From positions 372,001-436,000 of the forward strand of contig JAAFJE010000001.1 in the NCBI GenBank assembly GCA_013298025.1: a DNA stretch of 64,000 nucleotides, given 5' to 3'. Under the pieces are notes generated by a model, which saw only the letters and a list, made by a program, of their open reading frames with translations, did no database searches and had not been told where the DNA came from. The DNA is from Cytophagales bacterium (lineage in GTDB: Bacteria; Bacteroidota; Bacteroidia; Cytophagales; Spirosomataceae). The position numbers were made by a program, and so were the translations under genes. Below, piece after piece: positions 11,506-33,056 of this stretch (the stretch's first letter is position 1; each line of letters starts with the position of its first letter).

Positions 11506-12825
11506 TTAGGAGGCTGTTTGGCTTTTGTTACAATAACTTTCTACCATCGTTACGGCAAAGCCAAGAGCATTTACAGGATTGAATAATTGCTCCAACTGCT
11601 CTGGTGTCAGTAGTTGTTGGCGTGCTACCACTGTTTTTAGATGTACGCCTTCGGCTTGGGCAAGCTTACACCATTGCTCTACTCGCTCGTGTGCTTCGGC
11701 TTTACCAAGTTGTTCGGCTAAAGCTAAACTAACATTTTCGGCAAAAATAAGTCCTTGCGTAGCTTCAATATTGCGTAACATTTGGGACGTATTTACTTCT
11801 AAGTTTTGCGTCATCACTTGTGTTTGAGCCAAACTTCCTGCACACAACTGTAAGATTTGTGCCAATGTTTCCCATTCTGTGTGCCAAGCCCCCGTAGCCC
11901 GTTCGTGGTCTTGAAGTTGAGCTTGCAACAGCGTACTTACCAATGCCGGCACCCTTTGGGCATTTGCCAAAATGGCAATACACGATACGGGGTTGCGTTT
12001 ATGTGGCATGGTAGAAGAGCCACCTTTGCCCTGTGCCGATGGCTCGAATACCTCTGCTATTTCGGTTTGCATCAGCAGACTAATATCTTTGGCTATTTTT
12101 CCTAAACTTCCCGACAATAAGCCTACGGTAGTAGCAATCTGTGCCAACAGGTCACGCTGGGTATGCCAAACCACGAGATGATACGACAAGCCTAGTAGCG
12201 ATGCCAAACTTTGGGCAATGGCTTGTCCTTTGTCGGGCATACTTGCCAATGTACCAACAGCACCACCCAACTGTACGTAAAAAGAAAGTTGTGCGAGGCG
12301 TTCTTTGGCACGTACCAAGCCGTCGAGCCACGTAACCACCTTTAAACCAAAGGTAATCGGTCGGGCTTGTTGCATAAACGAGCGACCAATCATTACGGTA
12401 TGACGATGGGCGTAAGCCAATTCATAGAGTTGTGCAATAATCACCGTTAATCGTTCTTGCATCAGTGCAATACTTGCCTGTGCTTGCAACATTTGAGCGG
12501 TGTCTATTACATCCTGACTGGTAGCTCCATAATGCACAAACTTCGCCGCTTCGGGGCTTTTTTGTTTGACCAACACCGTCAATTGCTTCACAAGTGGAAT
12601 GGTTACGTTTCCGCCCAAACCAACCTGAGCTACCAAGGCGGGCATATCAATAGCCTTTACAGTACAGCATTCGGCAATTATTTGGGCATATTCCTTTGGA
12701 ATAAAGCCTTCTTGGGCTTGAGCCAATGCCAAATTTGCTTCAAACGTAAGCAAGTATTGTACGGTTTGTTCGGGCGAAAAGATATGGTTTACAGCCTTAT
12801 CGTAAAACAACGATTCATAAAGCAT
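11506..12825 (-). CDS. pcaB: 3-carboxy-cis,cis-muconate cycloisomerase
   Basis: A 439-residue member of the fumarase/aspartase superfamily. It converts beta-carboxy-cis,cis-muconate to gamma-carboxymuconolactone, the step after ring cleavage in the protocatechuate branch. The superfamily signature GKGGSSTMPHKRNPV sits near residues 266-280, with the catalytic serine in the flexible SS loop; an earlier conserved block is YGATSQDVIDTAQ. Length agrees with proteobacterial PcaB (about 450). Adenylosuccinate lyase is excluded by the operon setting and the TSQDVIDT motif. It is the last gene of the pobA-pca run, 22 bases after pcaF. Confidence 0.93.
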   Translation of the reverse strand: MLYESLFYDKAVNHIFSPEQTVQYLLTFEANLALAQAQEGFIPKEYAQIIAECCTVKAIDMPALVAQVGLGGNVTIPLVKQLTVLVKQKSPEAAKFVHYGATSQDVIDTAQMLQAQASIALMQERLTVIIAQLYELAYAHRHTVMIGRSFMQQARPITFGLKVVTWLDGLVRAKERLAQLSFYVQLGGAVGTLASMPDKGQAIAQSLASLLGLSYHLVVWHTQRDLLAQIATTVGLLSGSLGKIAKDISLLMQTEIAEVFEPSAQGKGGSSTMPHKRNPVSCIAILANAQRVPALVSTLLQAQLQDHERATGAWHTEWETLAQILQLCAGSLAQTQVMTQNLEVNTSQMLRNIEATQGLIFAENVSLALAEQLGKAEAHERVEQWCKLAQAEGVHLKTVVARQQLLTPEQLEQLFNPVNALGFAVTMVESYCNKSQTAS

Positions 12826-12847
12826 AAGTCTGATTGCGAAGTTGTGG

Positions 12848-14056
12848 TTAACATTTTTCTATAATCACCGCATAGCCTTGTCCTACACCTACACACATAG
12901 CTGCCAAGGCATAACGTTTGTTTTGTTTGTGCAATTCGAGGGCGGCTGTTTGGATAAGACGAGTACCCGACATACCCAGTGGATGCCCCAAGGCAATAGC
13001 TCCTCCGTTGGGATTGATGCGTGGGTCGTCGTCGGCTAAACCGAGGACTCTTGTACACGCCAATACCTGTGCTGCAAAAGCTTCGTTTAGCTCAATGATG
13101 TCGATGTCTTGAAGACTCAACCCTGCTTTGGCTAAAGCTTTTTGTGTAGCAGGTACAGGGCCAATACCCATGATGCGAGGCTCTACCCCTACTACTGCCG
13201 AAGCAACAATTTTGGCCAATGGCTTTAATTGGTATTGTGCTACAGCTTCTTCCGATGCCAAAAACATCGCAGCAGCCCCATCGTTTAGACCTGCGGCATT
13301 GCCTGCCGTTACGCTTCCGCCTTCTTTTTTGAAGGCAGGACGCAATTTTGCCAAGCCTTCTACCGTTGTTTGAGGTTTGACAAATTCGTCTTTGGCAAAA
13401 ACTAAGGCATCTCCCTTCTTTTGAGGAATATGTACAGGAGTAATTTCTTCGGCTAAACGACCATCTTGTTGGGCAATACTGGCTTTTTGTTGCGAACGTA
13501 AGGCAAACAAATCTTGGTCTTCACGGCTAATTTGATACATCACTACCAAATTTTCAGCCGTTACGCCCATTGCATCAGTGCCATACATTTGTTGCATAAG
13601 CGGATTGACAAAACGCCAGCCAAAGCTCGAATCGAACATTTGGGCATCGTTGCCAAATGGTTTCGAGGTTTTTGAAATCACCCAAGGGCCACGGGTCATG
13701 TGTTCGATACCGCCAGCCAACATCACGTCGGCATCGCCCGTTTGGATGGCACGAGCGGCACTGATTACCGCCGACATCCCCGAAGCACACAAACGGTTGA
13801 CCGTTTCGCCCGGAATGGTATGGGGTAAACCCGCCAACAAAGCCGCCATGCGGGCCACGTTGCGGTTGTCTTCACCCGCTTGGTTATGGCAACCTAAAAC
13901 AACATCGCCAATACTTTCTTGCGGAATTTGTGGGTTACGTGCTACCAAGGCTTTGATAACCCAAGTAGCCAAGTCATCGGCACGAATGCCCGAAAGGCTG
14001 CCTCCAAAACTCGCAATGGGAGTCCGAATGGCATCTATGATATAAGCTGTTTTCAT
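12848..14056 (-). CDS. pcaF: Beta-ketoadipyl-CoA thiolase
   Basis: A 402-residue thiolase. The nucleophile Cys90 ([12 protein letters not shown]), His358 ([14 protein letters not shown]) and Cys388 ([10 protein letters not shown]) are all present. It cleaves 3-oxoadipyl-CoA to acetyl-CoA and succinyl-CoA, the final step. Specific features shared with PcaF/PaaJ enzymes include the N-terminus [26 protein letters not shown] and [12 protein letters not shown]. Its ATG overlaps the stop of the CoA-transferase gene by four bases (ATGA), indicating translational coupling. A general acetyl-CoA acetyltransferase is unlikely in this context. Confidence 0.95.
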
Positions 14057-15399
14057 GAAAGTTTCTCAATAAATTTTGCGGCAGTTTTAGCTCTTACTTC
14101 TTCAATCGTTACATTCGGCATCAATTCGATAAGCGTAAGTTTACCTTCGGGATAAGCAAAAACCGCCAAGTCTGTAATAACCAAATCGACAACGCCTTCG
14201 GCCGTAAGGGGCAAAGTACAAGCAGGCACAACTTTAGAAGTACCATCGGGGTCGGCATGGGTGAGGGTTACGATGAGTTTTTTTGCCCCCGAAGCCAAAT
14301 CCATTGCTCCACCTACGCCCAGCAAAGGTTTGCCCGGGACAGCCCAATTGGCCAAGTTGGCGTTTTCGTCGATTTCTAAGCCACCCATAATCGCTACATC
14401 AATATGTCCTCCTCTAATCATAGCAAACGAATCGGCACTATCAAAATAGCTGCTTCCTTTGAGGGCTGTGACGGGTATTTTTCCTGCATTGACAGGATAA
14501 TCCATCGCACCGCCTCCATCTTCGGGGGCAGGGCCAACGCCCAACATTCCATTTTCTGTATGTAAAATAATACCATCTTCGGGTTGAATCAAATCCGCTA
14601 CCAAAGTCGGGATACCAATACCGAGGTTTACGACATCGCCTTTTTTCAATTCGGCGAATGCCCTTTTGGCCATTTGCATTCTTGATTCACTCACCTTTTT
14701 CCCCTTACTTACCGAAGCCGATGAGCCTAAATCGGCGGCGGTTACTTTGGCTTCAACCAAATAATCGACAAAGCAACCAGGCGTATGAATATTGTTGGGG
14801 TCTATTTCGCCTACTGGCACAATTTCTTCCACCTCGGCAATCACCAAATCGGCGGCAGTTGCCATTGCACGGTTGAAATTCTGCTCGGTCATACGATAAG
14901 TCAGATTGCCAGCGGTGTCGGCTTTCCAAGCCCTGATAAACGCCACGTTTCCTCTGATGCCTTCGATAAATACTTGCTCTTGACCTTGAATCACCTTGGT
15001 TTCACGGTCTTTGGCAATAAGCGTACCTGCCGACGTTGGGGTATAAAATCCGCCAATGCCTGCTCCTCCTGCTCGAATCGCTTCGGCAAGTGTACCTTGT
15101 GGTAAAAGCTCGTATTCGACTTGTCCTGACTGTGCCGCTTTTACGGCATCGGGATTACTGGTAAAAAACGAACCAACCATTTTTTTAAGCTGCCCATTGA
15201 CCAACAAGCGGCCACCGCCAAGGTTGGGTTCGCCTACATTATTGCCAATAAAAGTAAGATTTTTGGTAGAAGTATTCGCCAAAGCGTGTAAAAGATGCAC
15301 AGGATTGCCTGTCATCCCAAAGCCGCCACCGAGCAGAATATCGCCATCTTTTACCAATGCGGCTGCTTGTGCTGCGGTGATTTGTGGTACTTGTTTCAT
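14053..15399 (-). CDS. pcaIJ: 3-oxoadipate CoA-transferase, fused A and B subunits
   Basis: A 448-residue protein joining both halves of a class I CoA-transferase. Residues 1 to about 220 are the A subunit ([14 protein letters not shown] oxyanion/CoA region); about 235-448 are the B subunit, with the catalytic glutamate in [11 protein letters not shown]. It transfers CoA from succinyl-CoA to 3-oxoadipate. In Pseudomonas the two subunits are separate pcaI and pcaJ; here a short linker, rich in lysine and serine ([13 protein letters not shown]), joins them as in mammalian SCOT. SCOT itself (acetoacetate) is an alternative, but the operon position between pcaG and pcaF favours 3-oxoadipate. Confidence 0.92.
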
Positions 15400-15462: not shown

Positions 15463-16032
15463 TTACACATCAAAAAATACCGTTTCGCCTTCGCCTTGCA
15501 TAACTATATCCCACTGATATACAATACCTTCACCTGTTTCTTGGCGTTGAGCAATCAGCGTAGCGATTCTGTCGGAAGGAACAGTTTGCAATACAGGGTC
15601 TTGGGCATTAGCTGTATTTTCGTCTGAAAAATACAAACGGGTATAAGCATGAACCAACAGCCCACGCATAAACACCACTACCGTAATATGCGGTGCTTGT
15701 CCTTGTACAGCACCGGGTTTGATGGTTTGAAAAATAAAGCGGTTGTGGACATCGGGACCTGTACCAAACCGACCAAAACCTTTAAAATCAGAATCTTGCG
15801 GATTATAATTACCTTGGGCATCTGCTTGCCAAATTTCTATCAAAGCATCAGGAATAGGCTTTCCCTCGCCATCGAGTACACGCCCAACAATCGTAATGGG
15901 TTGTCCTTGGGTTTGGGGAGTACGCACCATGCCGGTGGCAACACTACTATGGTCGTATAAATATTGTACGGGACTCAGGCCATAAGCAAAGTATGGGCCT
16001 ACCGTTTGCGAAGGGGTCTGGATATAACTCAT
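15463..16032 (-). CDS. pcaG: Protocatechuate 3,4-dioxygenase alpha subunit
   Basis: A 189-residue intradiol dioxygenase subunit: SQTVGPYFAYGL at the N-terminus, the beta-sandwich core GRVLDGEGKPIPDALIEIWQAD, and GFGRFGTG. The alpha subunit lacks the iron-binding tyrosine/histidine set (it has APHITVVVFMRG where the beta subunit has RPNHIHFS), as expected. It forms the alpha-beta protomer with PcaH and helps build the active-site pocket for protocatechuate. Its ATG overlaps the pcaH stop by four bases. Confidence 0.95.
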   Translation of the reverse strand: MSYIQTPSQTVGPYFAYGLSPVQYLYDHSSVATGMVRTPQTQGQPITIVGRVLDGEGKPIPDALIEIWQADAQGNYNPQDSDFKGFGRFGTGPDVHNRFIFQTIKPGAVQGQAPHITVVVFMRGLLVHAYTRLYFSDENTANAQDPVLQTVPSDRIATLIAQRQETGEGIVYQWDIVMQGEGETVFFDV

Positions 16033-16727
16033 TGGTTCTCGAATGGGGTTGCTTTATCGCCTCTCAGCACAATGTTGAAACGATAGCCCAAAGCAAAATC
16101 GGGCTGGGTCAATGATAAATCGAATGATGAAATCAACAATTCTCTCCCTTTTTCTGGAACACCTTGATAAATAGGGTCGTAAGCCAAAAGTGGGTCGCCA
16201 GGGAAATACATTTGCGTTACCAAACGACTGGTGATATTTGAACCAAAAAGCGAAAAATGAATATGGTTGGGTCGCCAAGCATTCGGATGGTTGCCCCAAG
16301 GATATGCCCCTGGTTTGATGGTGAAAAAGGTATAATTTCCTTCGTTATCGGTAACACAGCGTCCTCCTCCAAAAAAGTTAGGGTCTAAAGGCGCATTATG
16401 CTGGTCAACTTTATGAATATATCTACCAGCAGCATTGGCTTGCCATATTTCTACCAAGGTATTTCGTACAGGACGACCATATTGGTCTAATACTTGTCCC
16501 GATACCACGATGCGTTCGCCGAGTGGCTCGCCATTACGGATACCATTTTTAGTAAGGTCGTTATCGTATTTCCCTAAACTCTCATGGCCATACACGGGAC
16601 CTGTCAACTCCGATAAACTGTGTTTGATAGGAATGAGCGGTTTGGCTGGGGCTCTCAACACCGTAGAGGCGTAAGGCGGATAACTATAAGGGGGATGCAC
16701 TTCCCAATCTCTTTGATTGTCGTTCAT
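16029..16727 (-). CDS. pcaH: Protocatechuate 3,4-dioxygenase beta subunit
   Basis: A 232-residue catalytic subunit that cleaves the protocatechuate ring between the two hydroxyls with molecular oxygen. The non-haem iron ligands are visible: Tyr103 (AAGRY), Tyr142 (GAYPWGNH), His155 and His157 (RPNHIHFS). These lie exactly five positions before the Pseudomonas ligands Tyr108, Tyr147, His160 and His162, so the alignment is without gaps across the site. A PcaH N-terminal region (residues 1-60) is also present. Active, iron(III) enzyme expected. Confidence 0.97.
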   Translation of the reverse strand: MNDNQRDWEVHPPYSYPPYASTVLRAPAKPLIPIKHSLSELTGPVYGHESLGKYDNDLTKNGIRNGEPLGERIVVSGQVLDQYGRPVRNTLVEIWQANAAGRYIHKVDQHNAPLDPNFFGGGRCVTDNEGNYTFFTIKPGAYPWGNHPNAWRPNHIHFSLFGSNITSRLVTQMYFPGDPLLAYDPIYQGVPEKGRELLISSFDLSLTQPDFALGYRFNIVLRGDKATPFENQ

Positions 16728-16763: not shown

Positions 16764-17936
16764 TCAATTTTGAGGATTTATCTCTTCGCCAAATACTTTT
16801 TTAGCTATTTTAAAAGCCTCATTTGAATTTGGAACGCCTGTATAAATACCTAAATGTAAGAGTACTTCTTTGATGTCGTCGATGCTTGCTCCTGTATTGC
16901 GTGTAGCTTTGAGGTGCATTTCTAGCTCTTCGTGGTGTGCCAAACCTGCCAGTAAAGCAATGGTTATCATGCTTCGCTCACGTTTGGTTAGGTGTGGCCG
17001 AGACCAAACTAGCCCCCAAGCACTTTGGGTAATATATGCCTGAAAATCTTGGTCGAGGCTATTTTTATTGGCTTCGGCTCTGTCCACGTGAGCATTGCCC
17101 AATACCGAACGGCGGGTTTTCATGCCTTGTTCATACAAAGACAACGCACTTGGCTGGCTCACAAATGCTTCGATAAGAGCCGTGAGTTTTTTTGGATTAT
17201 CTACACATGGAATATGCCCAGAACCTTCTATTGCTTGGTACTCGGCTTGTGGCATGAGTGCGACTAAACTTTTGACCAAAGCTGGAGTCGTAGAAAGGTC
17301 TTCTGTTCCTACGATACAAAGGGTCGGATGAGCGATTTGCTTGACCACCTCCGTGAGGTCGGCATCTCTGATGGCCTCACAGCAATGAATGTAGCCTGTA
17401 GGGCAACACCGCTCTAGCATGGTACGATAGCCAATCAATGCACTTGGGTTGCCCGTGCGAAACGCCGCAGGAAACCATTTTTCCATCACATTATCTGAAA
17501 TACCCGACAAGCCAAGTGTTTGTACTTGGGCAATACGTTGGTTCCAGCTTTCGGCTGTTCCGATTTTATGGGCGGTGTCGCAAAGCACCAAACGACTCAC
17601 CCGATGAGGCTGATTGGCTGCCAGTAACATCGCTACTCGTCCGCCTACCGACAAGCCCACAGGAATACATTGCTCAATGGCTAAGGCATCGAGCAGGGCT
17701 ACCAAATCTTCGTAATAGCTTTGCATACCATGAGTACTTTGTGCCGTTTCAGAAAGACCATGCCCCCGTTTATCATATACTAAAACATTGCCTATCGACT
17801 GCAAGGCTTGGGCTACGGCATCCCAAATACGAAAGTCGGTGCCGAGCGAGTTGATGAAAACAAACGTATGTTCTTTGCGATGATTGACCCAACGGTAATG
17901 TACGTTAAGCCCATTTACTTGCATAAAATCAGCCAT
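16764..17936 (-). CDS. pcaL: Fused 3-oxoadipate enol-lactonase / 4-carboxymuconolactone decarboxylase (PcaL type)
   Basis: A 390-residue fusion. Residues 1 to about 262 are an alpha/beta hydrolase with nucleophile Ser96 in GLSVGG, acid in VGTEDLSTTP and histidine in GSGHIPCVDN: the enol-lactone hydrolase PcaD. Residues about 265-385 are a carboxymuconolactone decarboxylase domain (YEQGMKTRRSVLGNAHVDRA..., ERSMITIALLAGLAHHEELEMHLKATRNTGAS): PcaC. Such PcaDC fusions are called PcaL in actinobacteria. The two consecutive reactions turn gamma-carboxymuconolactone into beta-ketoadipate with channelled enol-lactone. It lies 36 bases before pcaH. Confidence 0.94.
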   Translation of the reverse strand: MADFMQVNGLNVHYRWVNHRKEHTFVFINSLGTDFRIWDAVAQALQSIGNVLVYDKRGHGLSETAQSTHGMQSYYEDLVALLDALAIEQCIPVGLSVGGRVAMLLAANQPHRVSRLVLCDTAHKIGTAESWNQRIAQVQTLGLSGISDNVMEKWFPAAFRTGNPSALIGYRTMLERCCPTGYIHCCEAIRDADLTEVVKQIAHPTLCIVGTEDLSTTPALVKSLVALMPQAEYQAIEGSGHIPCVDNPKKLTALIEAFVSQPSALSLYEQGMKTRRSVLGNAHVDRAEANKNSLDQDFQAYITQSAWGLVWSRPHLTKRERSMITIALLAGLAHHEELEMHLKATRNTGASIDDIKEVLLHLGIYTGVPNSNEAFKIAKKVFGEEINPQN

Positions 17937-18005: not shown

Positions 18006-19184
18006 TTATATGGTTTTCAAGCCTACATAATTTTCGGCAATGGTTGTTTCTTGGGCTTTCGACAGGCCGATATAATCGAATTTTGACTTTTGTAATAAGT
18101 TTTCAAATGAGCCATGTGCGGCTTGTTTGTGAAAAAGATAAGTCATAAAATTAGAAAAATCTTGTGCTCGCCAAATTCTTCTTAGGCAATCCTGTGAGTA
18201 GCTTTCCAATAAAATATCTTCTTGTTTTTCAAACCATTGTATCAAAGCAGTCGCCAAAAATCGCACATCTGCCACCGCTAAATTCAAGCCTTTACCGCCT
18301 GTTGGAGGCACAATATGTGCGGCATCACCAGCCAAAAACAAGCGGCCATGCTGCATGTTGTCAATCATAAAACTACGCATAGGTGTAATGCTTTTCTCGA
18401 AAATCGGGCCTCTGTTCAATGTCCAACCTTCTGTTCCTAAACGAATCGCTAACTCATCCCAAATCTGCTCATCCGTCCAATTTTCTACTTTATCCTCATT
18501 GTCCACCTGAATGTACAAACGGCTTACGGTTTCAGAACGCAAGCTATGCAAAGCAAAGCCTCTTTCGTGGTACGCATAAATCAATTCGTCGGACGAAGGA
18601 GCTACATTTGCCAAAATTCCTAGCCAGCTAAATGGATATTCTATCCTAAATTCTTGGTAAGAATCTTTGGGTAAATGCTTGCGTCCAATGCCATGATAGC
18701 CATCGCAGGCAGCCACAAAGGCACAATCAATGCGATGTTCTTCGCCATTTTGTTTGAAGAAAATCGTGGGCGTTTCAGTTTCTAAGCCAGCTAGGTGCGT
18801 TGCTTCCGCCTCGAAAAGAATAGGAATATGGCGTTCGAGGTTTGCCTGAATCAAGTCTTTTACCGCTTCTTGTTGCCCATAAATCGTGATACAACGGCCG
18901 CCTGTCAGTTCTTTAAAAGCTACTCGCTTGCGTACACCATTGAAGCTCAAATATACACCGTGGTGTTCTAAGCCTTCTTTGTCCATGCGTTCGCTTACGC
19001 CCAACTCACGCCATAAGTCAACGGTGTTTTGTTCCAACAAGCCTGCTCGTACACGAGATTCGACGTAATTACGACTTCTATTTTCTAGGATAATGCAGTC
19101 AATGCCTTGACGTTGCAACATCAGAGCCAAGGTGAGTCCCGCAGGGCCGGCTCCGATAATACCAACTTGAGTTTGATGTATCAT
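18006..19184 (-). CDS. pobA: 4-hydroxybenzoate 3-monooxygenase
   Basis: A flavoprotein hydroxylase of about 392 residues that converts 4-hydroxybenzoate to protocatechuate with NADPH and oxygen. The FAD dinucleotide fold is at the N-terminus (VGIIGAGPAGLTLALML), with RAGLLEQNTVDLW, the DG motif region CDGYHGIGRKHLP and the second FAD motif LFLAGDAAHIVPPTGGKGLNLAVAD. I chose the ATG at 19184 because it gives the usual PobA length and N-terminus; an in-frame ATG at 19226 would add 14 residues. It heads the pob-pca run and is divergent from an AraC regulator. Confidence 0.95.
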   Translation of the reverse strand: MIHQTQVGIIGAGPAGLTLALMLQRQGIDCIILENRSRNYVESRVRAGLLEQNTVDLWRELGVSERMDKEGLEHHGVYLSFNGVRKRVAFKELTGGRCITIYGQQEAVKDLIQANLERHIPILFEAEATHLAGLETETPTIFFKQNGEEHRIDCAFVAACDGYHGIGRKHLPKDSYQEFRIEYPFSWLGILANVAPSSDELIYAYHERGFALHSLRSETVSRLYIQVDNEDKVENWTDEQIWDELAIRLGTEGWTLNRGPIFEKSITPMRSFMIDNMQHGRLFLAGDAAHIVPPTGGKGLNLAVADVRFLATALIQWFEKQEDILLESYSQDCLRRIWRAQDFSNFMTYLFHKQAAHGSFENLLQKSKFDYIGLSKAQETTIAENYVGLKTI

Positions 19185-19308
19185 GATGGATAAATCTGAA
19201 ATAACGGTTGTTAGTTTAAGAGACATGTTGTTTTCTGAAAGGCTTTATCCTAGTATTTGCCTTTACAGAAGACTCAAAACAAATCTATTTTTTCTTGTAT
19301 TTATACAA

Positions 19309-24272: not shown

Positions 24273-25049
24273 TTATTCGCCTACTTTTTTAGCTCTACCT
24301 TCCAAAAAATCTGCTAGGCGTTGTTTGGCTTCGGGTGCATTTTGGGCAATGGCTGCCATGAGGCTTTCGAGCAGTAGCCCTTCGGTTTGCCCAGCATCTA
24401 CAATTCTTGGCAATACGTGCGTCAAGGCAAAATTGGTCATGCCTGCATTTGAGGCAATTTTTTGTGCTAGTTCTATACCTTTTTCAAGTCCTTTACCTGT
24501 TTCTACCAAGTATTGAGCCAAGCCAATACGCTCGCCTTCGGCTGCCTGATATACACGCCCCGTTAGCATCATATCGGTCATGCGTGCCATGCCAATGAGT
24601 TTTGGTACTCGCACCGAAGCCCCTCCTCCTACAAAAATGCCTCTTTGTCCTTCGGGTAAGGCATAAAATGTGCTGTCGTCTGAAACCCGAATATGGCAAG
24701 CGGCCGCCAATTCTAAACCACCACCCACAACAGCCCCGTGTAGTACAGCAATGACTGGTACTGGACCAAATTGCACTTTATCGAGTACCCGATGCCACAT
24801 TCTCGAATGATACACGCCTTGTACGGCATCTCTTTCTTTGAGTTCAGAGAGGTCTAAGCCTGCCGAAAAATGCTTGCCATGCCCGTGAATAATCACACAG
24901 CGAACGCCACTAGGGATTTGGTCGAATATTTTTTCAATTCCTAAAATCAACTCATCGTTGAAGGCATTACGCTTTTCTGGTCGGTTGAGTGCTACCAATA
25001 CGATATTGTCTTGCCGTGTCACCTCTAAGGTTGACGGCAGGTTTTGCAT
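24273..25049 (-). CDS. Crotonase-fold enoyl-CoA hydratase, probable hydroxycinnamoyl-CoA hydratase (CouM-like)
   Basis: A 258-residue crotonase from the ATG at 25049 (a GTG four codons upstream is possible). Oxyanion-hole segments KHFSAGLDL and GAVVGGGLELAAAC are present. Both general acid/base glutamates of hydratases seem conserved: GGGLELA and LPEGQRGIFVGGG. It should hydrate hydroxycinnamoyl-CoA. Whether it stops at the hydrated product or also cleaves it like HCHL/vanillin synthase cannot be decided by eye; the neighbouring SDR and amidohydrolase argue for hydration only. First gene of the hydratase-ligase-SDR-esterase operon. Confidence 0.85.
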   Translation of the reverse strand: MQNLPSTLEVTRQDNIVLVALNRPEKRNAFNDELILGIEKIFDQIPSGVRCVIIHGHGKHFSAGLDLSELKERDAVQGVYHSRMWHRVLDKVQFGPVPVIAVLHGAVVGGGLELAAACHIRVSDDSTFYALPEGQRGIFVGGGASVRVPKLIGMARMTDMMLTGRVYQAAEGERIGLAQYLVETGKGLEKGIELAQKIASNAGMTNFALTHVLPRIVDAGQTEGLLLESLMAAIAQNAPEAKQRLADFLEGRAKKVGE

Positions 25050-25079
25050 GAAATGTTCCACAAATAAAAGAGGGACTTG

Positions 25080-25201: not shown

Positions 25202-26488
25202 CTAGCTAATTTTATCCGACGATAAAAACCAAGTAGTGATACCTGCCAAGACCGTAGGAATGGCAAAAATCAAAAAGTTTGCCCCCATCGATAAGCCCAC
25301 GCCAATCAAGATGCCACCCACGGCGGGGCCAATAATGCCTCCCAAGCGTCCAATGCCAATCGACCAGCCTACGCCTGTGGTACGAAACTCTGTCGGATAC
25401 ATTCTGGCAGCCACGGCATACAGCCCTACAAAACCGCCTTGTACACCAAAACCCAATAGCCCGAATACCAGCAACAATACGTCTGAGCCAATGAATAGCT
25501 TGAAGATTGCCATGAGTATGCCCGTGAGGATTAGTATCGTGCCAATGGTTTTTTTGAGGCCATATTTACTAGAAAAATACCCTTGCGTTACGATGCCTAC
25601 AAATGCCCCGCAATTGAATACAGTGCCTGCATAAATCGCCAATTCCATCGACAAACCTGCGGCCGATGCCAGTTTAGGAATCCAACTTGTGAGGAAATAA
25701 AGCGTAGCAAATGCCAAAAATAGGGCTGTCCATAATTGCAAAGTAGGCTTTCGATAGGCTTTGTCTAAAACCTTTGCTACCGAATTTTTATGCAATTGCA
25801 AAGGCTTGTCGGGCAAATAAGTCAATGGCACTTTTCCCATTTTTACGAGCAATCCATTGACTTTGGTTAAGGCATTTACAGGCTGTGATTTTAAATAAAA
25901 GTCGATAGATTCTACTAAAAACAAATAAATCAAGGGCAACGACAACAGCGTAGCTACACCAGCCCATTGAAATAGTGCTTGCCAACCTTGTAAAGGAATC
26001 AGGTACGCCGCCACTAAACCCGACAACACCGCCCCCACAGGATAGCCCGATAGCACAAAACTGACCCAAAAATCCTTGGTTTTCGCAGGAGCGTACTCAG
26101 AGGTAATGGCTGCTGTACTCGCCAACATACATCCAATACCTAGCCCGTTGATGAATCGAAAAATCATCAAAATTTGTACATTCGCCGCATAAGAAGTCAG
26201 GAAAATGGTCAGGCTCATCAATAAGCCACTGAGCAACATCATGCTTTTTCTTCCAATTTTATCGGCAAACGGTGCTAAGACCAAAGCCCCGACGGTCATG
26301 CCTATCAAGCCCGAACTAAACACTACGCCCAAGGCTTGCGGACTTACATTCCAGCCTTTCGCAATGGCAGGAGCGGCATACGAAATCACCATTACGTCCA
26401 TGCCATCGAGCATATTCATCAAAAAGCATATTAGAATGGTCGTATAAGCCCACTTCGATACAGCAGGCGTTTCTAAGGTTATGTTCAT
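25202..26488 (-). CDS. MFS aromatic-acid transporter (AAHS type, PcaK/CouT-like)
   Basis: A 428-residue 12-TM major facilitator from the ATG at 26488; the frame extends 13 codons upstream but the first membrane segment begins soon after MNITLETPAVSKW. TM1 contains LDGMDVMVISYAAP, the DGxD motif required by PcaK-type aromatic acid:H+ symporters, and loop 2-3 has the MFS signature DKIGRKSMM. Its position in the aromatic cluster supports uptake of hydroxycinnamates, 4-hydroxybenzoate or protocatechuate across the inner membrane. It follows the amidohydrolase by 52 bases. Confidence 0.88.
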   Translation of the reverse strand: MNITLETPAVSKWAYTTILICFLMNMLDGMDVMVISYAAPAIAKGWNVSPQALGVVFSSGLIGMTVGALVLAPFADKIGRKSMMLLSGLLMSLTIFLTSYAANVQILMIFRFINGLGIGCMLASTAAITSEYAPAKTKDFWVSFVLSGYPVGAVLSGLVAAYLIPLQGWQALFQWAGVATLLSLPLIYLFLVESIDFYLKSQPVNALTKVNGLLVKMGKVPLTYLPDKPLQLHKNSVAKVLDKAYRKPTLQLWTALFLAFATLYFLTSWIPKLASAAGLSMELAIYAGTVFNCGAFVGIVTQGYFSSKYGLKKTIGTILILTGILMAIFKLFIGSDVLLLVFGLLGFGVQGGFVGLYAVAARMYPTEFRTTGVGWSIGIGRLGGIIGPAVGGILIGVGLSMGANFLIFAIPTVLAGITTWFLSSDKIS

Positions 26489-26540
26489 AGTCCTGTTTAA
26501 GTAGTTTAGCAATGCAAATTGTAACACAAAGTGTTTATTA

Positions 26541-27410
26541 TCAATTTTTTAAACCCAACATCCGAATGGCGTTTTCTTTCAAAATCAAAGGCTTTACTTG
26601 TGGTTTGAAACCTGCTTCTTCAAAATCTTTTATCCAACGTTCGGGCGTAATCAAGGGGAAGTCTGTTCCAAAGAGCATTCGGTCTTTGAGCAAGGTATTG
26701 GCATATTGCACCAGTTGTGGTGGGAAATATTTGGGCGACCAGCCACTGAGGTCGATGTACACGTTGGGTTTGTGCATCGCCACAGAAAGGGCTTCGTCTT
26801 GCCAAGGCCAACTTGGGTGTGCAATGATAATCGGACAATCGGGGAAATCAATTGCCACGTCGTCGAGGTGAATCGGATTAGAATACTCTAATCGCAAGCC
26901 TCCGCCTCCACGCACCCCACTGCCAAAACCCGAATGCCCCGAATGAAACAGCATAGGTAATTTGTACTCAGCAATTACTTCATAAAGCGGATACGCCATT
27001 TTATCTTGTGGGTAAAAACCCTGTACTGTTGGGTGAAATTTGAAGCCTTTTACCCCATAATTTTCAATCAAATCACGGGCTTCTCTGGCACCCATTCGTC
27101 CTTTGTGTGGGTCGATGCTCGCAAAGGCAATCATTACATCGTCGTTTTTCAATGCTCCTTCGGCTACTTCTATGTTCGGAATACGGCGTTTGCCAACGGT
27201 ATGCTCGGCATCTATTGTAAACATAACAAATGCCATGTTGCGTTCACGGTAATAATCGGCGGTTTCCTGAATGGTAGGTCTTTTGTCTGATTTAAAATAT
27301 TTGGCAAAAGCCTCGTCAAACTCCGAACGATAATCGTCGTGTGGCTGACAACACGACACTTCTGCGTGCGTGTGTACATCTATGGCTATGACTTTTTGAA
27401 TGTCTATCAT
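26541..27410 (-). CDS. Amidohydrolase-2 family metal hydrolase, candidate retro-Claisen beta-ketoacyl-CoA hydrolase (CouO-like)
   Basis: A 289-residue TIM-barrel hydrolase from the ATG at 27410 (an ORF extension upstream looks untranslated). Metal-binding and catalytic elements are visible: DVHTHAE (His-x-His), GVKGFKFHP, MLFHSGHSG, IIIAHPSWPWQD and LFGTDFPL (Asp). This is the ACMSD/amidohydrolase-2 group. In CoA-dependent p-hydroxycinnamate pathways of Rhodococcus (CouO) and Agrobacterium (Atu1421), a hydrolase of this kind splits 4-hydroxybenzoylacetyl-CoA to 4-hydroxybenzoate and acetyl-CoA. The adjacent ligase, hydratase and dehydrogenase make that assignment likely; a decarboxylase is the main alternative. 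Confidence 0.75.
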   Translation of the reverse strand: MIDIQKVIAIDVHTHAEVSCCQPHDDYRSEFDEAFAKYFKSDKRPTIQETADYYRERNMAFVMFTIDAEHTVGKRRIPNIEVAEGALKNDDVMIAFASIDPHKGRMGAREARDLIENYGVKGFKFHPTVQGFYPQDKMAYPLYEVIAEYKLPMLFHSGHSGFGSGVRGGGGLRLEYSNPIHLDDVAIDFPDCPIIIAHPSWPWQDEALSVAMHKPNVYIDLSGWSPKYFPPQLVQYANTLLKDRMLFGTDFPLITPERWIKDFEEAGFKPQVKPLILKENAIRMLGLKN

Positions 27411-27446
27411 TTTTTTAAAATATACAAAAACTCCGTTGTTAAGTAG

Positions 27447-27477
27447 CAAACCTACATGAGTAGTGTACGAAAGTTTT
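27447..27477 (-). promoter_or_regulatory. Candidate promoter with recurrent ACGAAAGTTTT motif
   Basis: The reverse strand has TAGGTTTG (27454-27447), a match to TAnnTTTG, 37 bases before the amidohydrolase start. No TTTG lies at -33; instead the forward sequence GTACGAAAGTTTT (27465-27477) covers that position. The 11-mer ACGAAAGTTTT recurs in two other intergenic spots. Confidence 0.4.
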
Positions 27478-27544: not shown

Positions 27545-28672
27545 TTATTCTACAAAACCAGCCTTGGGTTTTTGCCCTGTTTTGGTCCAATGTAACAAGG
27601 CTTCAAAAGCCTTTTGGGTTTGTTGGGGAGTAAAATTACAATGTCCTTGTCCGTTGGTATATTTTACGGTAAAATACTGGTCTTTTTGTTGCTGATGTAC
27701 CATGTTTTCAAAATTAACCACGCCATAAGTGGCAGGAATCAATTGGTCGTAAATGGTATGCAACAACAAAACGGGCTTGTCTATTTTACCTGTTCGGTCG
27801 TATTTACCGAAAATCAAATTAGGATTAACGGTTGCAACTAAACGTTCGGCTTGTTGATTTACCACCAAATTATTGGGAAAACCACTGTACAAGGTATTGG
27901 TATTATCGAAAGGATTGCCTCCTGCTTTTTGGGCAATATCCCGCAAGACATTTTCATTAAACATCAACGAAAATGGCAGGTCGTCGAGTTTTAGGTCAAA
28001 TCTTTTGGCAAAAGCAATCGCCAAAACTGAGTCTTTGGCAAGTAGGGCTTCTTTGATGGCTTTCGCTTTTCCCACCATTGCTCTCATGTTGAGGGCTGGT
28101 GTAAGGGTTTTTGAGGCAAAAATTTCTTTCAACGAAGGTACAATTCCTGGAAACAAGCCATTGAAAGTAGCATACATATCATACTCTTTGCGGCATTGCA
28201 AGTAGGGTCGGCTCGAAAGCGGACACAAAGGCAATGCCCCGTTGTAGTATTGTCCAAAGTTTTCGATAGTAGCCAAGGTGATTCCTCCTCCCATCGAATG
28301 CCCCACCATAAAAGTAGAGTCGGGTTTGCCGTATTGTTTGATAAAGTATTGTCGCAAGGCTTCGGTGTCGTCAACGCCTTGCGGTAAGGCAAAACCTTGG
28401 TATTGATAGTCGGAAGCAGCCACAGCGTAGCCTTTAGCCAAAAATGGCTTCATGCGTACCAGAAACTCAGGATTTTGGCTTTGCAAAGGTTTGCTTCCCA
28501 TAAATTCGTAGCCGTGGGCGTACATCACCAATTTGCCTTTCCAATTTTCTGGAAATAAAATGCGGTATTTCGCTCCATTGATAGCTCCCGAATCAATTTT
28601 GGCAATGTTTTGCCCCAATACTGCACTGGCTGTGAGCAAGAGCCATCCCAACAATACGAGTTGTTTTTTCAT
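27545..28672 (-). CDS. Secreted alpha/beta hydrolase
   Basis: A 375-residue protein with signal peptide MKKQLVLLGWLLLTASAVLGQ. The alpha/beta hydrolase core has the strand KLVMYAHGYEFMG, nucleophile elbow GHSMGG (about residues 131-136) and a late histidine in GQGHCNFTPQQ. Four cysteines around LCPLSSRPYLQCRKEYD may form a disulfide, fitting an exported enzyme. It lies in the aromatic region, between the amidohydrolase and the MetE-like gene, so an aromatic-ester esterase is plausible; the substrate cannot be read from the sequence. Confidence 0.78.
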   Translation of the reverse strand: MKKQLVLLGWLLLTASAVLGQNIAKIDSGAINGAKYRILFPENWKGKLVMYAHGYEFMGSKPLQSQNPEFLVRMKPFLAKGYAVAASDYQYQGFALPQGVDDTEALRQYFIKQYGKPDSTFMVGHSMGGGITLATIENFGQYYNGALPLCPLSSRPYLQCRKEYDMYATFNGLFPGIVPSLKEIFASKTLTPALNMRAMVGKAKAIKEALLAKDSVLAIAFAKRFDLKLDDLPFSLMFNENVLRDIAQKAGGNPFDNTNTLYSGFPNNLVVNQQAERLVATVNPNLIFGKYDRTGKIDKPVLLLHTIYDQLIPATYGVVNFENMVHQQQKDQYFTVKYTNGQGHCNFTPQQTQKAFEALLHWTKTGQKPKAGFVE

Positions 28673-28896: not shown

Positions 28897-30003
28897 CTAG
28901 GCTTCGCCCCATACTTTGATTGCCGTGTTTACCACCAATTCAATTTTACGCCATTGGTCGTCGTGGGTCAAATCGTTGCCATGATGCGTTGACGAAAAGC
29001 CACATTGCGGACTTACGCAAAGGTTTTCGAGTGGTATGTATTGAGCCGCCTCGTCGATACGCTTGCAAAGGTCGTCGATGTTTTCGAGTGCTTTTACTTT
29101 AGACGAAACAATGCCTAGTACTACGTGCTTGTGCGAAGGCACAAAACGAAGCGGAGCAAAATCGCCACTGCGTTCGTCGTCGTATTCCAAGAAATAAGCA
29201 TCCACATTGATTTCGTTGAAAAGGATTTCGGCCACAGGCTCGTAGCCACCTTCGGCAAACCAAGTACTGCGGTAGTTGCCTCGGCACAAATGAATGCCAA
29301 CGGTAAGGTCTTTGGGGCGGTCGTCGATAACCGAGTTGATAAGAGCGGCATACGTGCGAGGCAATTGGTTGGGGTCTTCGCCACGAGCTTGGGCGGCGGC
29401 ACGCATTTTGGGGTCGCAGAGATAGGCCAAATTGGTATCGTCGAGTTGCAAATATCGTAAGCCTGCATCATACAAATGGGCTATTTCTTGGCGATAGGCT
29501 TTAGACAAATCAGCAAAAAACTCGTCCATGTCGGGGTAAGAATTGATGTCGATTGATTTGCGTCCTCCTCTAAAGTGAATCATGGTAGGCGATGGAATCG
29601 ACACTTTAGGCGTTTGACTCACAACCGATTGCAGGTAGTTGAAGTCGGCCACTTGAATATCTTTTGTATGAGCCAATTTGCCTGTTACACTCAGCACTGG
29701 CGGCGTAAAGCCATCTTCGGCAGCTTTGGCGTTGGGATTTGCCTCAATGCCTCCCGTTACGGTAACACCCGCCAATTCTTTCAAAAAATCGAGGTGAAAA
29801 TAATCTCGACGAAACTCTCCATCAGTAATGGCCTTCATGCCTGTAGCTTCCAATTTCTTCACAGTTTCGGCAATGCCTTCGTTTTCTATAGCTCGGAGTT
29901 CTTCGGCAGAAATTTGCCCCATTTTCCATTTCAAACGATTTTCTTTCACGGCTGGCGTTCTCAAAAGGCTTCCCACGTGGTCGGCTCTAAAAGGAGGTTT
30001 CAT
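28897..30003 (-). CDS. MetE-like cobalamin-independent methyltransferase (YxjG/YxjH type)
   Basis: A 368-residue protein equal to the C-terminal catalytic half of MetE. Residues 5-14 RADHVGSLLR, ATGMKAITDGEFRRDYFHLDFL, YLQLDDTN, the zinc ligands in GIHLCRGN (His, Cys) and SPQCGFSS (Cys) are all present. Members transfer methyl groups from folate, methylcobalamin substitutes or small methyl donors to homocysteine or other thiols. Its place between an esterase and regulators of aromatic catabolism raises the possibility that it handles methyl groups from methoxylated aromatics, but this is only inference; ordinary methionine synthesis or salvage is equally possible. Confidence 0.82.
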   Translation of the reverse strand: MKPPFRADHVGSLLRTPAVKENRLKWKMGQISAEELRAIENEGIAETVKKLEATGMKAITDGEFRRDYFHLDFLKELAGVTVTGGIEANPNAKAAEDGFTPPVLSVTGKLAHTKDIQVADFNYLQSVVSQTPKVSIPSPTMIHFRGGRKSIDINSYPDMDEFFADLSKAYRQEIAHLYDAGLRYLQLDDTNLAYLCDPKMRAAAQARGEDPNQLPRTYAALINSVIDDRPKDLTVGIHLCRGNYRSTWFAEGGYEPVAEILFNEINVDAYFLEYDDERSGDFAPLRFVPSHKHVVLGIVSSKVKALENIDDLCKRIDEAAQYIPLENLCVSPQCGFSSTHHGNDLTHDDQWRKIELVVNTAIKVWGEA

Positions 30004-30280: not shown

Positions 30281-31189
30281 TCAATTTTCATTTTTTCTAA
30301 AGCGATTTGGGGTCATTTGTGTTTTAGATTTGAAAAAACGACAAAAATCGCTTGGGTCGAGCTTGCCTAATTTGAAGGCTATTTCGCCAATACTCATACT
30401 GGTTTGTTTGAGCATTACTTTAGCTTCCAAAATACGCATTTCTTCGAGCAACTCGTGGGCCGATTTGCCCGTGGTGGCTTTCACACTTTTGTGCAAATGA
30501 TTGGGCGAAACCGCCAAATAATCGGCGTATTCTTGTACGGTTTTCTTCTCATAAATAAAACTCGACAAGGCATCTTTGTAGCGTTGGGTCAATTGTGTAG
30601 CTGCGTTTTGGGGCTTCATACCTTGGGGATTTACCTGCAAACTCAATTCTACAAAAATGCTGAGGAGGTACATTTTCAAAAGGCTGATACGCTCAGGTTG
30701 ATTTTTTTTGTATTCTTCCCATAAAAGCTCCAATAACGCAACAACAGCCTTATCGTCAGTTACTTGCACAATCGGATTGCCCGTAAATTGGAAAAAGGGC
30801 AAGTCGGTAATAAAATCGGTTGGTGTAAGCGATTGATTGAAAATTTCGGGTAAAAAATGGCAATAAAATCCCTCGGCATCTTCGCTGATATACTCTAAAG
30901 ATGTGATTTGGTCGGCAGGCAGGGCAAACAAATGGTGTGGCTCAAGCACATATTGGGTAAGTCCTTTGCTACGAATGGCTTTGCCTTTAGTCAAATAAAT
31001 AAAAAAATACACCAAACGCCGATGCGGTTGTAAGGGCAATTTGAGATGAGGTTTGTAATATTCTACTTTTTCTATGTGAAATTGGTCGTACAATTGTGCC
31101 ACTTCGGGCTTCCAGTTGCCAAACAAATAATCATCAAATTGCGATGGTTTCAGGCTTGGAATATGCGATTGGACAGACGATAGTTTCAT
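30281..31189 (-). CDS. AraC-family transcriptional regulator
   Basis: A 302-residue regulator with an N-terminal cupin-like sensing domain (residues about 50-150, ending in FYCHFLPEIFN) and a C-terminal AraC DNA-binding domain. The two helix-turn-helix units are KTVQEYADYLAVSPNHLHKSVKATTG and MSIGEIAFKLGKLDPSDFCRFFKSKTQMTPNRFR. It lies between the acyl-CoA dehydrogenase and the MetE-like gene, all on the same strand, and is not similar in its N-terminal half to the regulator at 19436. It may control the upper hydroxycinnamate genes; the effector is unknown. Confidence 0.85.
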   Translation of the reverse strand: MKLSSVQSHIPSLKPSQFDDYLFGNWKPEVAQLYDQFHIEKVEYYKPHLKLPLQPHRRLVYFFIYLTKGKAIRSKGLTQYVLEPHHLFALPADQITSLEYISEDAEGFYCHFLPEIFNQSLTPTDFITDLPFFQFTGNPIVQVTDDKAVVALLELLWEEYKKNQPERISLLKMYLLSIFVELSLQVNPQGMKPQNAATQLTQRYKDALSSFIYEKKTVQEYADYLAVSPNHLHKSVKATTGKSAHELLEEMRILEAKVMLKQTSMSIGEIAFKLGKLDPSDFCRFFKSKTQMTPNRFRKNEN

Positions 31190-31310
31190 AAATGCTGAGG
31201 GATGGGTGAAATTGTGAATGGTTAATTAGTATTTTGATTTTCAACAAATTATCATTCACTCAATTAATTAAAATACCTGAAATCAATAGCTCGAAAACAT
31301 TCGGACAGGA

Positions 31311-33056
31311 CTAAGGCAAGGTTAATAACTCGTCGTTTTGCAAAGAAATAGCCCAATGATGACAAGCAGGAAAATGGTATTTAAAAAAGAAGCGTAAGCT
31401 ATGAATTTTGTCCTGATAAAATGCGTTGTCAGGCGTATCGGAAGCCAGTGCTTGCTGTGCCGTACTTCCCATTTTGAGCCATTGCCAAGCCACATTGAGC
31501 ATCCCGAAATAATGCAAATACAGGGTAGCATCGGCCAAAAAGGCTTCTGTTCCTTGCGTAGTGGCACGTTGCAACAAACGAGCGGTAATTTCCTTAAAAC
31601 GAAGCACTTCGGTATTGAAATTTGTCGTAAAACTTGATAAATTCTCAGGCATATTCGTCAAGGTTTGTTGCACTTCTTTTTCCCAAAGTGTCAAGATTTT
31701 CCCTTGACTTCCCCCTATTTGTCGCCCCAATAAGGTTTGTGCTTGAATCCCCGTTGTGCCTTCATAAATGCTCATGATACGCACATCTCTTGCCATTTGT
31801 TCTAAAGGAAAATCGTTGGTGTAGCCATAGCCTCCCAATACTTGCAAGCCCTGATGTACCGCTTGGTTGCCCATTTCGGCACCAACGGTTTTTACCACAG
31901 GCGTAAGCAATTGTAAGAGTGCTTCATAATACGCCTGTTGTTCAAGCGACACTTTAGCCAAGTCGAGGTAGAGGTAGCATTGCAAAAGCAAGGACAGCAC
32001 CCCTTCGGTAATGACCTTTTGGTCGAGCAACATTTTCTTCACATCAGGATGATTGACAATCGGCGTAGGTGCCGACTCGTTGGGTCGCCTGCCTTGTCGT
32101 CGTTCTTGGGCGTATTGCAAAGACGTATAATAAGCCGCCGAAGCCAGTTGCGTACCACCCAAGCCAACACCTAGTCGGGCGGCGTTCATCATCTGGAACA
32201 TTTGGAGAAGACCCTCATGGGCTTTTCCCAACAAAAAACCTTCGCATTGGTCGTCTTCGCCAAAGCTTAAATGAAGGGCTGGCGTAGCTTTTTGTCCCAT
32301 TTTATGATACAAACCAATGGTTTTTACATCGTTAGTTTGTGTCGGATTGTCCCATTTATGTTTGGGTACAATAAACAAAGAAATGCCCTTAACGCCCTGC
32401 GGAGCGTCTGCTATGCGAGCCAAGACTAGGTGAATAATATTTTCGGTAAGGTCGTGGTCGCCTGCCGAAATGAATATTTTTTGTCCTTTGATGCGGTACG
32501 TTCCATCGGACTGAGGGAAAGCTGTAGTCGTAATTTCGGCGAGCGAACTACCCGCTTGTGGCTCGGTAAGGCACATGGTTCCTGCCCATTTTCCAGCCAA
32601 TAAAGGCGGTACAAAGGTTTGTTTTTGGGTATCTGTACCGAAAGCAAGTATCAAATTGGCACAGCCTTGTACCAAGTCGGAAAACATCACAAAGCTGTTA
32701 TTGGCACAGCCCAATATAAAATCGACCGCCGCAAAAACGCTTTTAGGCATTTGTTGTCCTTCCCATTCCAAGGCAAAAGGAGCAGCCAACAAGCCCGATT
32801 CGGCCATTGCCTTAAAAAACACGTGTACGCCTTCATGCACCGCTACTTGCTGGTCGATGCACGTAGGTTCTTGTTTATCGGCTGGCTGATAAAAGGCTTG
32901 TATTTTATCGGCAATACTCGTAGCCATATCGAGTACCATTGCTAGTGTGCTTTGGTCGTGTATTTCAAAAAAAGGATACGCCAATAATTGCTGTACTTGG
33001 TGTACTTCCCACAAGGTAAAGTCTAAGTTTCTTCTCGAAAAAAGGGCTTGTTTCAT
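31311..33056 (-). CDS. Acyl-CoA dehydrogenase (large, DmdC/FadE5-like)
   Basis: A 581-residue flavoenzyme of the long acyl-CoA dehydrogenase subgroup. The FAD/substrate motifs MCLTEPQAGSSLAEITT and GQKIFISAGDHDLTENI (about residues 160-210), the middle beta domain, and the C-terminal QVLGGYGYTNDFPLEQMARDVRIMSIYEGTTGIQA with the catalytic glutamate in YEGTTG are present. It should desaturate acyl-CoA with electron transfer to ETF. In this neighbourhood it could oxidise dihydro-p-coumaroyl- or dihydroferuloyl-CoA to the cinnamoyl thioester, as PhdC does in Corynebacterium; a fatty-acid role cannot be excluded. Confidence 0.85.
   Translation of the reverse strand: MKQALFSRRNLDFTLWEVHQVQQLLAYPFFEIHDQSTLAMVLDMATSIADKIQAFYQPADKQEPTCIDQQVAVHEGVHVFFKAMAESGLLAAPFALEWEGQQMPKSVFAAVDFILGCANNSFVMFSDLVQGCANLILAFGTDTQKQTFVPPLLAGKWAGTMCLTEPQAGSSLAEITTTAFPQSDGTYRIKGQKIFISAGDHDLTENIIHLVLARIADAPQGVKGISLFIVPKHKWDNPTQTNDVKTIGLYHKMGQKATPALHLSFGEDDQCEGFLLGKAHEGLLQMFQMMNAARLGVGLGGTQLASAAYYTSLQYAQERRQGRRPNESAPTPIVNHPDVKKMLLDQKVITEGVLSLLLQCYLYLDLAKVSLEQQAYYEALLQLLTPVVKTVGAEMGNQAVHQGLQVLGGYGYTNDFPLEQMARDVRIMSIYEGTTGIQAQTLLGRQIGGSQGKILTLWEKEVQQTLTNMPENLSSFTTNFNTEVLRFKEITARLLQRATTQGTEAFLADATLYLHYFGMLNVAWQWLKMGSTAQQALASDTPDNAFYQDKIHSLRFFFKYHFPACHHWAISLQNDELLTLP

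Follow-up and report, generated by a model that had tools for sequence, protein, structure and literature searches.

How far could one block of genes in a member of the Bacteroidota carry plant hydroxycinnamates, from ester release to central metabolism, and which enzyme would remove the methyl group if ferulate were among the substrates? These questions are raised by positions 11506-33056 (the block) of a 64,000-nt stretch of Cytophagales DNA (the window), which belongs to a 5.44 Mb draft genome of 53 contigs and an organism whose nearest kin is Flectobacillus (Bacteroidota). From the protein families encoded, we consider it quite probable that the block is a catabolic supercluster for plant hydroxycinnamates that includes both side-chain and ring steps; substrates and reactions throughout were inferred from the observed genes, families, motifs, synteny and distribution. 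The pathway is a Bacteroidota variant of the known hydroxycinnamate route, and its most unusual gene, which deserves work, encodes a homologue of the catalytic barrel of the methionine synthase MetE (MetE-like below).

Gene content and proposed route

Ten co-directional genes run from 33056 down to 20334, in the order acyl-coenzyme A (acyl-CoA) dehydrogenase, AraC, MetE-like, secreted hydrolase, amidohydrolase, major facilitator superfamily (MFS) symporter, crotonase, ligase, short-chain dehydrogenase/reductase (SDR) and esterase-DUF3237, beyond which lie an opposite-strand AraC gene and then pobA, pcaDC, pcaH, pcaG, pcaIJ, pcaF and pcaB. By coordinate, the features are:

11506-12825, minus strand: pcaB, 3-carboxymuconate cycloisomerase (TIGR02426, 373 bits; cut-off 355.75)
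12848-14056, minus strand: pcaF, 3-oxoadipyl-CoA thiolase (TIGR02430, 617 bits; cut-off 597)
14053-15399, minus strand: pcaIJ fusion, both halves of 3-oxoadipate CoA-transferase (TIGR02429, 218.7 bits; TIGR02428, 285.2 bits; both above cut-off)
15463-16032, minus strand: pcaG (TIGR02423, 223.6 bits; cut-off 126.25)
16029-16727, minus strand: pcaH (TIGR02422, 355.2 bits; cut-off 296.4)
16764-17936, minus strand: pcaDC fusion (NF051488, 419.8 bits; cut-off 390)
18006-19226, minus strand: pobA, 4-hydroxybenzoate 3-monooxygenase (NF006091, 557 bits; cut-off 351)
19436-20320, plus strand: AraC-type regulator, divergent from pobA (HpaA-like, 137.7 bits, below the cut-off of 274.65)
20334-21668, minus strand: putative secreted esterase fused to DUF3237 (PF11578, 170.8 bits; BD-FAE, 46.5 bits; DLH, 50.6 bits)
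21676-22443, minus strand: SDR, proposed 3-hydroxyacyl-CoA dehydrogenase (PF00106; motifs)
22452-24260, minus strand: putative hydroxycinnamoyl-CoA ligase, PRK12582 type (733 bits, below the curated cut-off of 777)
24273-25061, minus strand: crotonase, proposed hydroxycinnamoyl-CoA hydratase (NF006013, 402 bits; cut-off 232; two Glu motifs)
25202-26527, minus strand: aromatic-acid MFS symporter (TIGR00895, 347 bits, below the cut-off of 419)
26541-27449, minus strand: amidohydrolase (Amidohydro_2), proposed aryl-beta-keto-CoA hydrolase, CouO/HpeF-like (PF04909, 170.5 bits; relatives' contexts)
27545-28672, minus strand: putative secreted tannase/feruloyl-esterase-like hydrolase (PF07519, 31.4 bits; cut-off 29.8)
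28897-30003, minus strand: MetE catalytic-barrel homologue, proposed aryl-O-demethylase (NF005085, 461 bits; cut-off 313)
30281-31189, minus strand: AraC-type regulator (HTH_18, 71 bits)
31311-33056, minus strand: acyl-CoA dehydrogenase (Pfam domains; inside the block in Lacihabitans-type loci)

All genes named in the original prediction are present at their places as open frames matching the expected families; what it overlooked is the MetE catalytic-half homologue inside the interval and, in the alpha/beta hydrolase that it called an esterase, the fused DUF3237 domain. Its assignment of a CoA-dependent beta-oxidative route like those of CouLMNO and A. fabrum, linked in this Bacteroidota genome to the beta-ketoadipate pathway through its protocatechuate branch, is supported by family matches and relatives' contexts.

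On the proposed route, secreted esterases would release hydroxycinnamic acids and the MFS symporter would import them, whereupon the ligase would form hydroxycinnamoyl-CoA, the crotonase would hydrate it and the SDR would oxidise the hydrated product to a beta-keto-CoA. The amidohydrolase would then split this compound into acetyl-CoA and either 4-hydroxybenzoate (from p-coumarate) or vanillate (from ferulate), and the MetE-like protein would demethylate vanillate to protocatechuate with zinc-bound homocysteine as methyl acceptor, which is the least certain step of the pathway. The acyl-CoA dehydrogenase would perhaps admit dihydro-hydroxycinnamates as well.

The protocatechuate branch is complete, with pcaH, pcaG, pcaB, pcaC, pcaD, pcaI, pcaJ and pcaF each scoring above the curated cut-off of the matching model; PobA passes the cut-off of NF006091 and reaches 491.6 bits against the stricter TIGR02360, below its 538.7. 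Genes of the pca/pob set also lie within several Spirosoma, Fibrella, Emticicia and Lacihabitans loci. For the side chain, a CouLMNO-type set of ligase, crotonase, dehydrogenase and amidohydrolase stands together in the window. The Ser and Tyr-Lys motifs of the SDR and the metal motifs of the amidohydrolase are present. Solved relatives of the ligase and the amidohydrolase are distant and uninformative; the closest solved relative of the crotonase is 3HIN, presumably a Rhodopseudomonas palustris protein.

This assignment was further examined through amidohydrolase relatives on plasmids (94 records, contexts examined in five). The relative stands beside a crotonase and a feruloyl-CoA synthase in Terrarubrum, and in Rhizobium Q54 beside an acyl-CoA dehydrogenase, a dehydrogenase, a feruloyl-CoA synthase, a hydratase and a MarR gene, with one gene of that neighbourhood annotated as 4-hydroxyphenyl-beta-ketoacyl-CoA hydrolase. 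Pseudomonas putida YC-AE1 and Rhizobium leguminosarum BT01 carry it with a biotin-dependent carboxylase, a HAD hydrolase and an acetoacetate-CoA ligase, resembling the Hpe operon, and Rhodococcus opacus with an AMP-binding protein, an SDR and a MaoC dehydratase. By analogy, the five contexts support a CouO/HpeF-type setting (PMC9618137) for the amidohydrolase.

A ligase scan of species genomes gave 104 relatives; 80 of their loci were kept, including 38 from Bacteroidota, or 39 loci with the window. Amidohydrolase-cluster open reading frames were found in 33 of these 39, the secreted hydrolase in 32, the MetE-like gene in 29, DUF3237 in 27 and the SDR in 24, in varying gene order. The block was recovered in relatives with its order changed, which indicates that the arrangement is beyond chance.

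The MetE-like gene and the proposed demethylation step

Use of ferulate needs an O-demethylase, a point that the original prediction did not address. The MetE-like protein (368 aa) consists of PF01717 only, with no N-terminal folate domain; its best model is PRK06520 (461 bits), and PRK04326, PRK09121 and PRK00957, which we guess to be Mes families, give at most 94.5 bits. In MetE, the structural account names His618, Cys620, Glu642 and Cys704 as zinc ligands and Ser411 and Glu462 among the homocysteine contacts, with folate stacking on Trp539 (PMC539065). By alignment, in which chain numbers run 32 higher, H238, C240, C334, S12 and E63 are the counterparts of His618, Cys620, Cys704, Ser411 and Glu462, while E273 was placed at Glu642 by manual register (the program aligned Asp268) and Trp539 falls opposite a gap. 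The zinc and homocysteine residues, E273 included, are conserved in no fewer than 49 of 50 clade proteins and in nine of nine outgroup proteins, and therefore mark the wider family and not solely this clade. Because these residues are kept and Trp539 is not matched, a zinc-homocysteine acceptor is likely and a folate donor unlikely. A precedent for direct methyl transfer is a Bmt enzyme reported to form methionine from dimethylsulfoniopropionate and betaine without folate or cobalamin (PMC12366255).

The distribution of the gene was compared with that of the amidohydrolase in a family sample (150 of 222 genomes) and a phylum sample (395 genomes). The amidohydrolase occurs at E <= 1e-30 in 43 of the 150 family genomes, 42 at no less than 80% identity and one at 37%, and the MetE-like gene in 46 (44 whole, one in two pieces and one as a fragment). 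With the 37% match scored as absent, 41 genomes carry both, one the amidohydrolase only, five the MetE-like gene only and 103 neither (Fisher p 5e-30, which overstates the association because the genomes are related and no kinship correction was applied). The MetE-like gene thus accompanies the amidohydrolase in 41 of 42 genomes, and in the phylum sample both occur in the same three. Besides the window genome, 45 family genomes have the MetE-like gene, and contexts were fetched for 44 of these (G042 was omitted). In 36 contexts a ligase, crotonase or amidohydrolase gene is found no more than 10 kb away, and in four of the remaining eight (G002, G038, G029, G127) the MetE-like gene stands within 300 bp of an aromatic-acid MFS gene. 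It is also found at 84% identity or more in 18 of 22 genomes behind the ligase loci. In G088 (L110) the two-piece gene adjoins a ligase fragment, and the block there seems to be decaying.

The sole amidohydrolase genome of the 42 without the MetE-like gene is that of Jiulongibacter sediminis (G019). Its VanA (VanA_C, 163 bits) is unique among the 222 family genomes in a VanA protein search at E <= 1e-35, and its vanA and VanB-like reductase genes adjoin pca genes, divergent from an IclR gene. In three of the 44 contexts the MetE-like gene has a divergent neighbour orthologous to this IclR gene (69-73% identity): a Jiulongibacter metagenome-assembled genome (G014), Lacihabitans sp. LS3-19 (G022) and G116, which has the genus number of G022. 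Since an orthologous IclR faces both, vanAB and the MetE-like gene occupy the same regulatory place in close relatives. The three IclR-MetE-like gaps carry TTTGTTCG-N5-CGAACAAA, a palindrome that resembles PcaR/PobR boxes and whose core TGTTCG-N5-CGAACA occurs exactly in four of 170 loci, which are those three places with one in duplicate. In the J. sediminis IclR-vanA gap it is not intact, only part being present, and in the window it is not found beyond chance (two matches with two mismatches; chance mean 2.38).

Other demethylases were sought in the window genome, which gave no VanA_C match, no cytochrome P450 (P450) at E <= 1e-10 and one GCV_T match; the LigM/DesA test found no GCV_T-family protein besides this GcvT-type one. 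A VanA, P450 or LigM-type enzyme was consequently set aside as its demethylase at the thresholds used. Should ferulate or vanillate be among the substrates of this organism, no candidate other than the MetE-like protein emerged from these searches, which did not extend to corrinoid demethylases or to kinds as yet undescribed. P450s were detected at E <= 1e-10 in 92 of the 150 family genomes. In three of the 44 contexts (G002, G038, G065) one is no more than 10 kb from the MetE-like gene, so that a P450 could be the demethylase in some relatives; a P450 gene together with a MEDS-BTAD domain regulator was also seen near the MetE-like gene in L108 (15070-17928) and L115. VanA_C matches were obtained in ten of the 150 genomes, at 163 bits in G019, at 56-61 bits in G074, G093, G109, G127 and G132 (genus g27) and at 23-25 bits in G031, G050, G102 and G137. 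The nine weaker matches were taken as other Rieske proteins because the VanA search at E <= 1e-35 missed them and the one 3.5-kb stretch read had no vanB-like neighbour. Among the 22 genomes behind the ligase loci, VanA_C was found in J. sediminis, G109 (60.8 bits) and one of the Flavobacteriaceae (94 bits), in whose fetched locus the ligase alone represents the block.

Taken together, these observations lead us to propose tentatively, and as something that may well prove wrong, that the MetE-like protein would be the first of a new aryl-O-demethylase class, transferring the methyl group directly from vanillate or ferulate onto zinc-bound homocysteine and replacing VanAB in the family. It is a possible, though somewhat doubtful, extension that the reaction would run without oxygen, folate or corrinoid and that methoxy groups would feed the methionine/S-adenosylmethionine pool. 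If true, such an enzyme would add a further class to the known Rieske, P450, folate and corrinoid systems, would require neither oxygen nor an electron partner and would be useful for lignin conversion. Among the open-access papers listed in the literature searches, none described a MetE-type aryl-O-demethylase or this block in these genera.

Several points weigh against the proposed route and its demethylation step. The ligase and transporter scores lie below their curated cut-offs, and for 15 of the 36 relatives with block genes the search of 10 kb around the MetE-like gene showed no SDR, some contexts being cut short at contig ends. The vanAB/MetE-like swap is drawn from one genome, and six of the genomes with weak VanA_C matches (G031, G074, G093, G102, G109, G132) also carry the amidohydrolase and the MetE-like gene, so that exclusivity would be weakened if the weaker nine were vanillate demethylases. 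Five family genomes hold a MetE-like sequence without the amidohydrolase (the two-piece gene and the fragment among them), and nine of ten examined plasmid-borne MetE-like relatives lie outside aromatic loci. Of 33 clade-specific positions, seven fall by a manual count in loops taken to be close to the active site, where 5.2 would be expected, which gives no sign of an altered donor site. A further weak point is that each demethylated aromatic would yield one methionine needing disposal.

An organism that uses only non-methoxylated acids (p-coumarate, caffeate, 4-hydroxybenzoate), with the MetE-like protein as an accessory methionine synthase or methyl-recycling enzyme unconnected with aromatic methoxy groups, would be in keeping with the presence of pobA in the block, with the scarcity of aromatic neighbours on plasmids, with the lack of a VanA_C, P450 or second GCV_T match in the window genome and with the unremarkable active-site loops, and we regard its prospects as approaching, but not reaching, an even chance. 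This account has to contend with the MetH already present in the window genome, with a MetE-like gene that follows the block and not methionine need, with its occupation of the vanAB position of J. sediminis, and with the BD-FAE-type esterase genes close to the block in relatives. A role of the MetE-like protein as the housekeeping methionine synthase was rejected, since the window genome encodes MetH, as do 145 of the 150 family genomes.

A separate observation concerns a Pantoea piersonii plasmid (L172, 8920-18893), where a MetE-like gene lies near gallate-pathway genes; the same region also encodes a VanB-family reductase and a ring-hydroxylating oxygenase, which makes the context ambiguous. 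The closest Klebsiella copies examined stand beside urt genes, and an E. coli search with the Pantoea gene gave no matches.

Putative secreted hydrolases, side-chain cleavage and origin

The product of 20334-21668 joins an alpha/beta hydrolase, whose start resembles a signal peptide, to a DUF3237 domain. This fusion is found in the window and three congeners; elsewhere in Bacteroidota DUF3237 mostly forms a protein of its own, which starts with a hydrophobic stretch, and four proteobacterial copies have no hydrophobic start (a crude hydrophobicity measure was used for both). Its closest solved relative is 3C5O, RPA1785, from R. palustris by its tag and numbered next to RPA1786. The latter is a hydratase to which a part in p-coumarate use by R. 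palustris has been assigned, although growth changed little when it was knocked down (PMC12366328). Accounts of pinoresinol catabolism describe the DUF3237 protein PinX as a decarboxylase (PMC12607616, PMC12997858); it shares 42% identity with PhcG and 38% with PhcF, which are phenylcoumaran decarboxylases (PMC12607616). A role of DUF3237 on ester-linked phenolics or diferulates is possible.

A further reading takes the DUF3237-esterase and the other secreted hydrolases as signs that ester-linked dimers or lignans are what the block really acts on, with simple hydroxycinnamates as intermediates. PinX acts on a lignan intermediate (PMC12607616), and DUF3237 recurs near the block as counted above, yet the Bacteroidota copies are mostly secreted by the same crude measure and none of the block genes was recognised as a stilbene dioxygenase, and we hold this reading to be improbable.

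The crotonase might instead be a hydroxycinnamoyl-CoA hydratase-lyase (HCHL), the side chain being lost via 4-hydroxybenzaldehyde or vanillin. The two genes that such a route requires encode a crotonase and a ligase, and some relatives lack an SDR near the block, but HCHL is not known to have the first crotonase Glu, whereas motif inspection found both hydratase glutamates in the window protein. Since both motifs are kept and no aldehyde dehydrogenase gene is among the 18 of the block, the beta-oxidative route is favoured, and with the amidohydrolase recurring in most Bacteroidota loci the HCHL/vanillin route was set aside as very unlikely.

The original prediction called the cluster notable for Bacteroidota; it is no lone oddity but a recurrent family trait. 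The amidohydrolase is present in 14 of the 36 genera of the family sample, and all three of the 395 phylum genomes that carry it (E <= 1e-40) belong to the family of the window. In a 55-row amidohydrolase tree (midpoint root), the 45 Bacteroidota rows form one clade (99/95), which adjoins Roseiarcus, Steroidobacteraceae and the P. putida plasmid copy. Block order is shared with three congeners, and the congeners carry the block, except G001. These data fit one old origin of the block in the family, likely a single ancient acquisition, and catabolism of hydroxycinnamates and 4-hydroxybenzoate is probably a recurrent, old trait of one Bacteroidota family. One stop codon was counted by the search tool in seven of the 44 amidohydrolase stretches of the family search.

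The claim that the block shows no base-composition break is not quite right, as its 18 genes average 45.4% G+C against 41.4% for 26 genes outside (Mann-Whitney p 0.0007) and 43.1% against 40.4% at third positions (p 0.03). If this genome had gained the block by recent horizontal transfer, the higher G+C would be accounted for and the proteobacterial identity of the closest non-Bacteroidota amidohydrolases would be in keeping, but such an import is scarcely credible because the Bacteroidota amidohydrolases form one clade, three congeners share the order and many genera of the family sample carry the gene.

Beside the block, at 35571-38652, three genes of low G+C (30-34%; one without a Pfam match, one RloB-like and one AAA_21 ATPase) look like a small mobile or defence-type set. 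The record of a locus labelled Cellulophaga sp. BC115SP is probably misnamed, since the genome that contains it (G053) is of the same genus as the window. In several relatives (L107, L108, L113, L126, L128, L134 and L137) the neighbourhood of the MetE-like gene or of the block includes a second AMP-ligase and a gene for a MadM-type malonate symporter, and malonate use may be coupled. A recurrent set labelled by eye as HisD-like, cyclase-like, FAD monooxygenase-like, FAH-like and SMP-30-like (L112, 10128-13071; L114, 11427-15512; L116, 1498-8923) suggests another aromatic pathway in relatives.

Comparison with known systems

The block shares with CouLMNO of Rhodococcus jostii RHA1 the steps of CoA ligation, hydration, oxidation and an amidohydrolase-type beta-ketoacyl-CoA hydrolase (PMC4737184, PMC9618137). 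It differs in its phylum, in its AraC regulators where Rhodococcus has the MarR-type CouR, and in adding the MetE-like gene, secreted esterases, DUF3237 and pob/pca genes.

The SpG8-1b region of Agrobacterium fabrum C58 likewise unites ligase (Atu1416), hydratase (Atu1417), dehydrogenase (Atu1415), beta-keto-cleaving enzyme (Atu1421) and a methyl-removing gene (O-demethylase Atu1420) (PMC7797058); there, demethylation is assigned to folate-dependent Atu1420 with Atu1418 under MarR/GntR regulators, whereas the window has the MetE-like gene and AraC regulators. HpeF of Rhodococcus rhodochrous GD02, a hydroxyphenyl-beta-ketopropionyl-CoA hydrolase described as 95% identical to CouO of RHA1 (PMC9618137), is a comparable beta-keto-CoA hydrolase, and homologues of the window amidohydrolase lie in Hpe-like clusters; the block differs from the Hpe pathway in having no kinase, carboxylase or phosphatase genes. 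PinX, PhcF and PhcG also place DUF3237 (stated for PinX) in aromatic catabolism, whereas the window copy is apparently secreted and esterase-fused.

Against VanAB, the reaction proposed for the MetE-like protein would be identical (vanillate to protocatechuate), and the gene takes the same IclR-facing position as in Jiulongibacter, whereas the protein is unrelated, has the MetE fold and would use neither oxygen nor a Rieske centre. The core methionine synthases MesA-MesD resemble it in being a catalytic domain without the folate domain and in using other methyl donors (PMC7857596), whereas the window protein best matches PRK06520.

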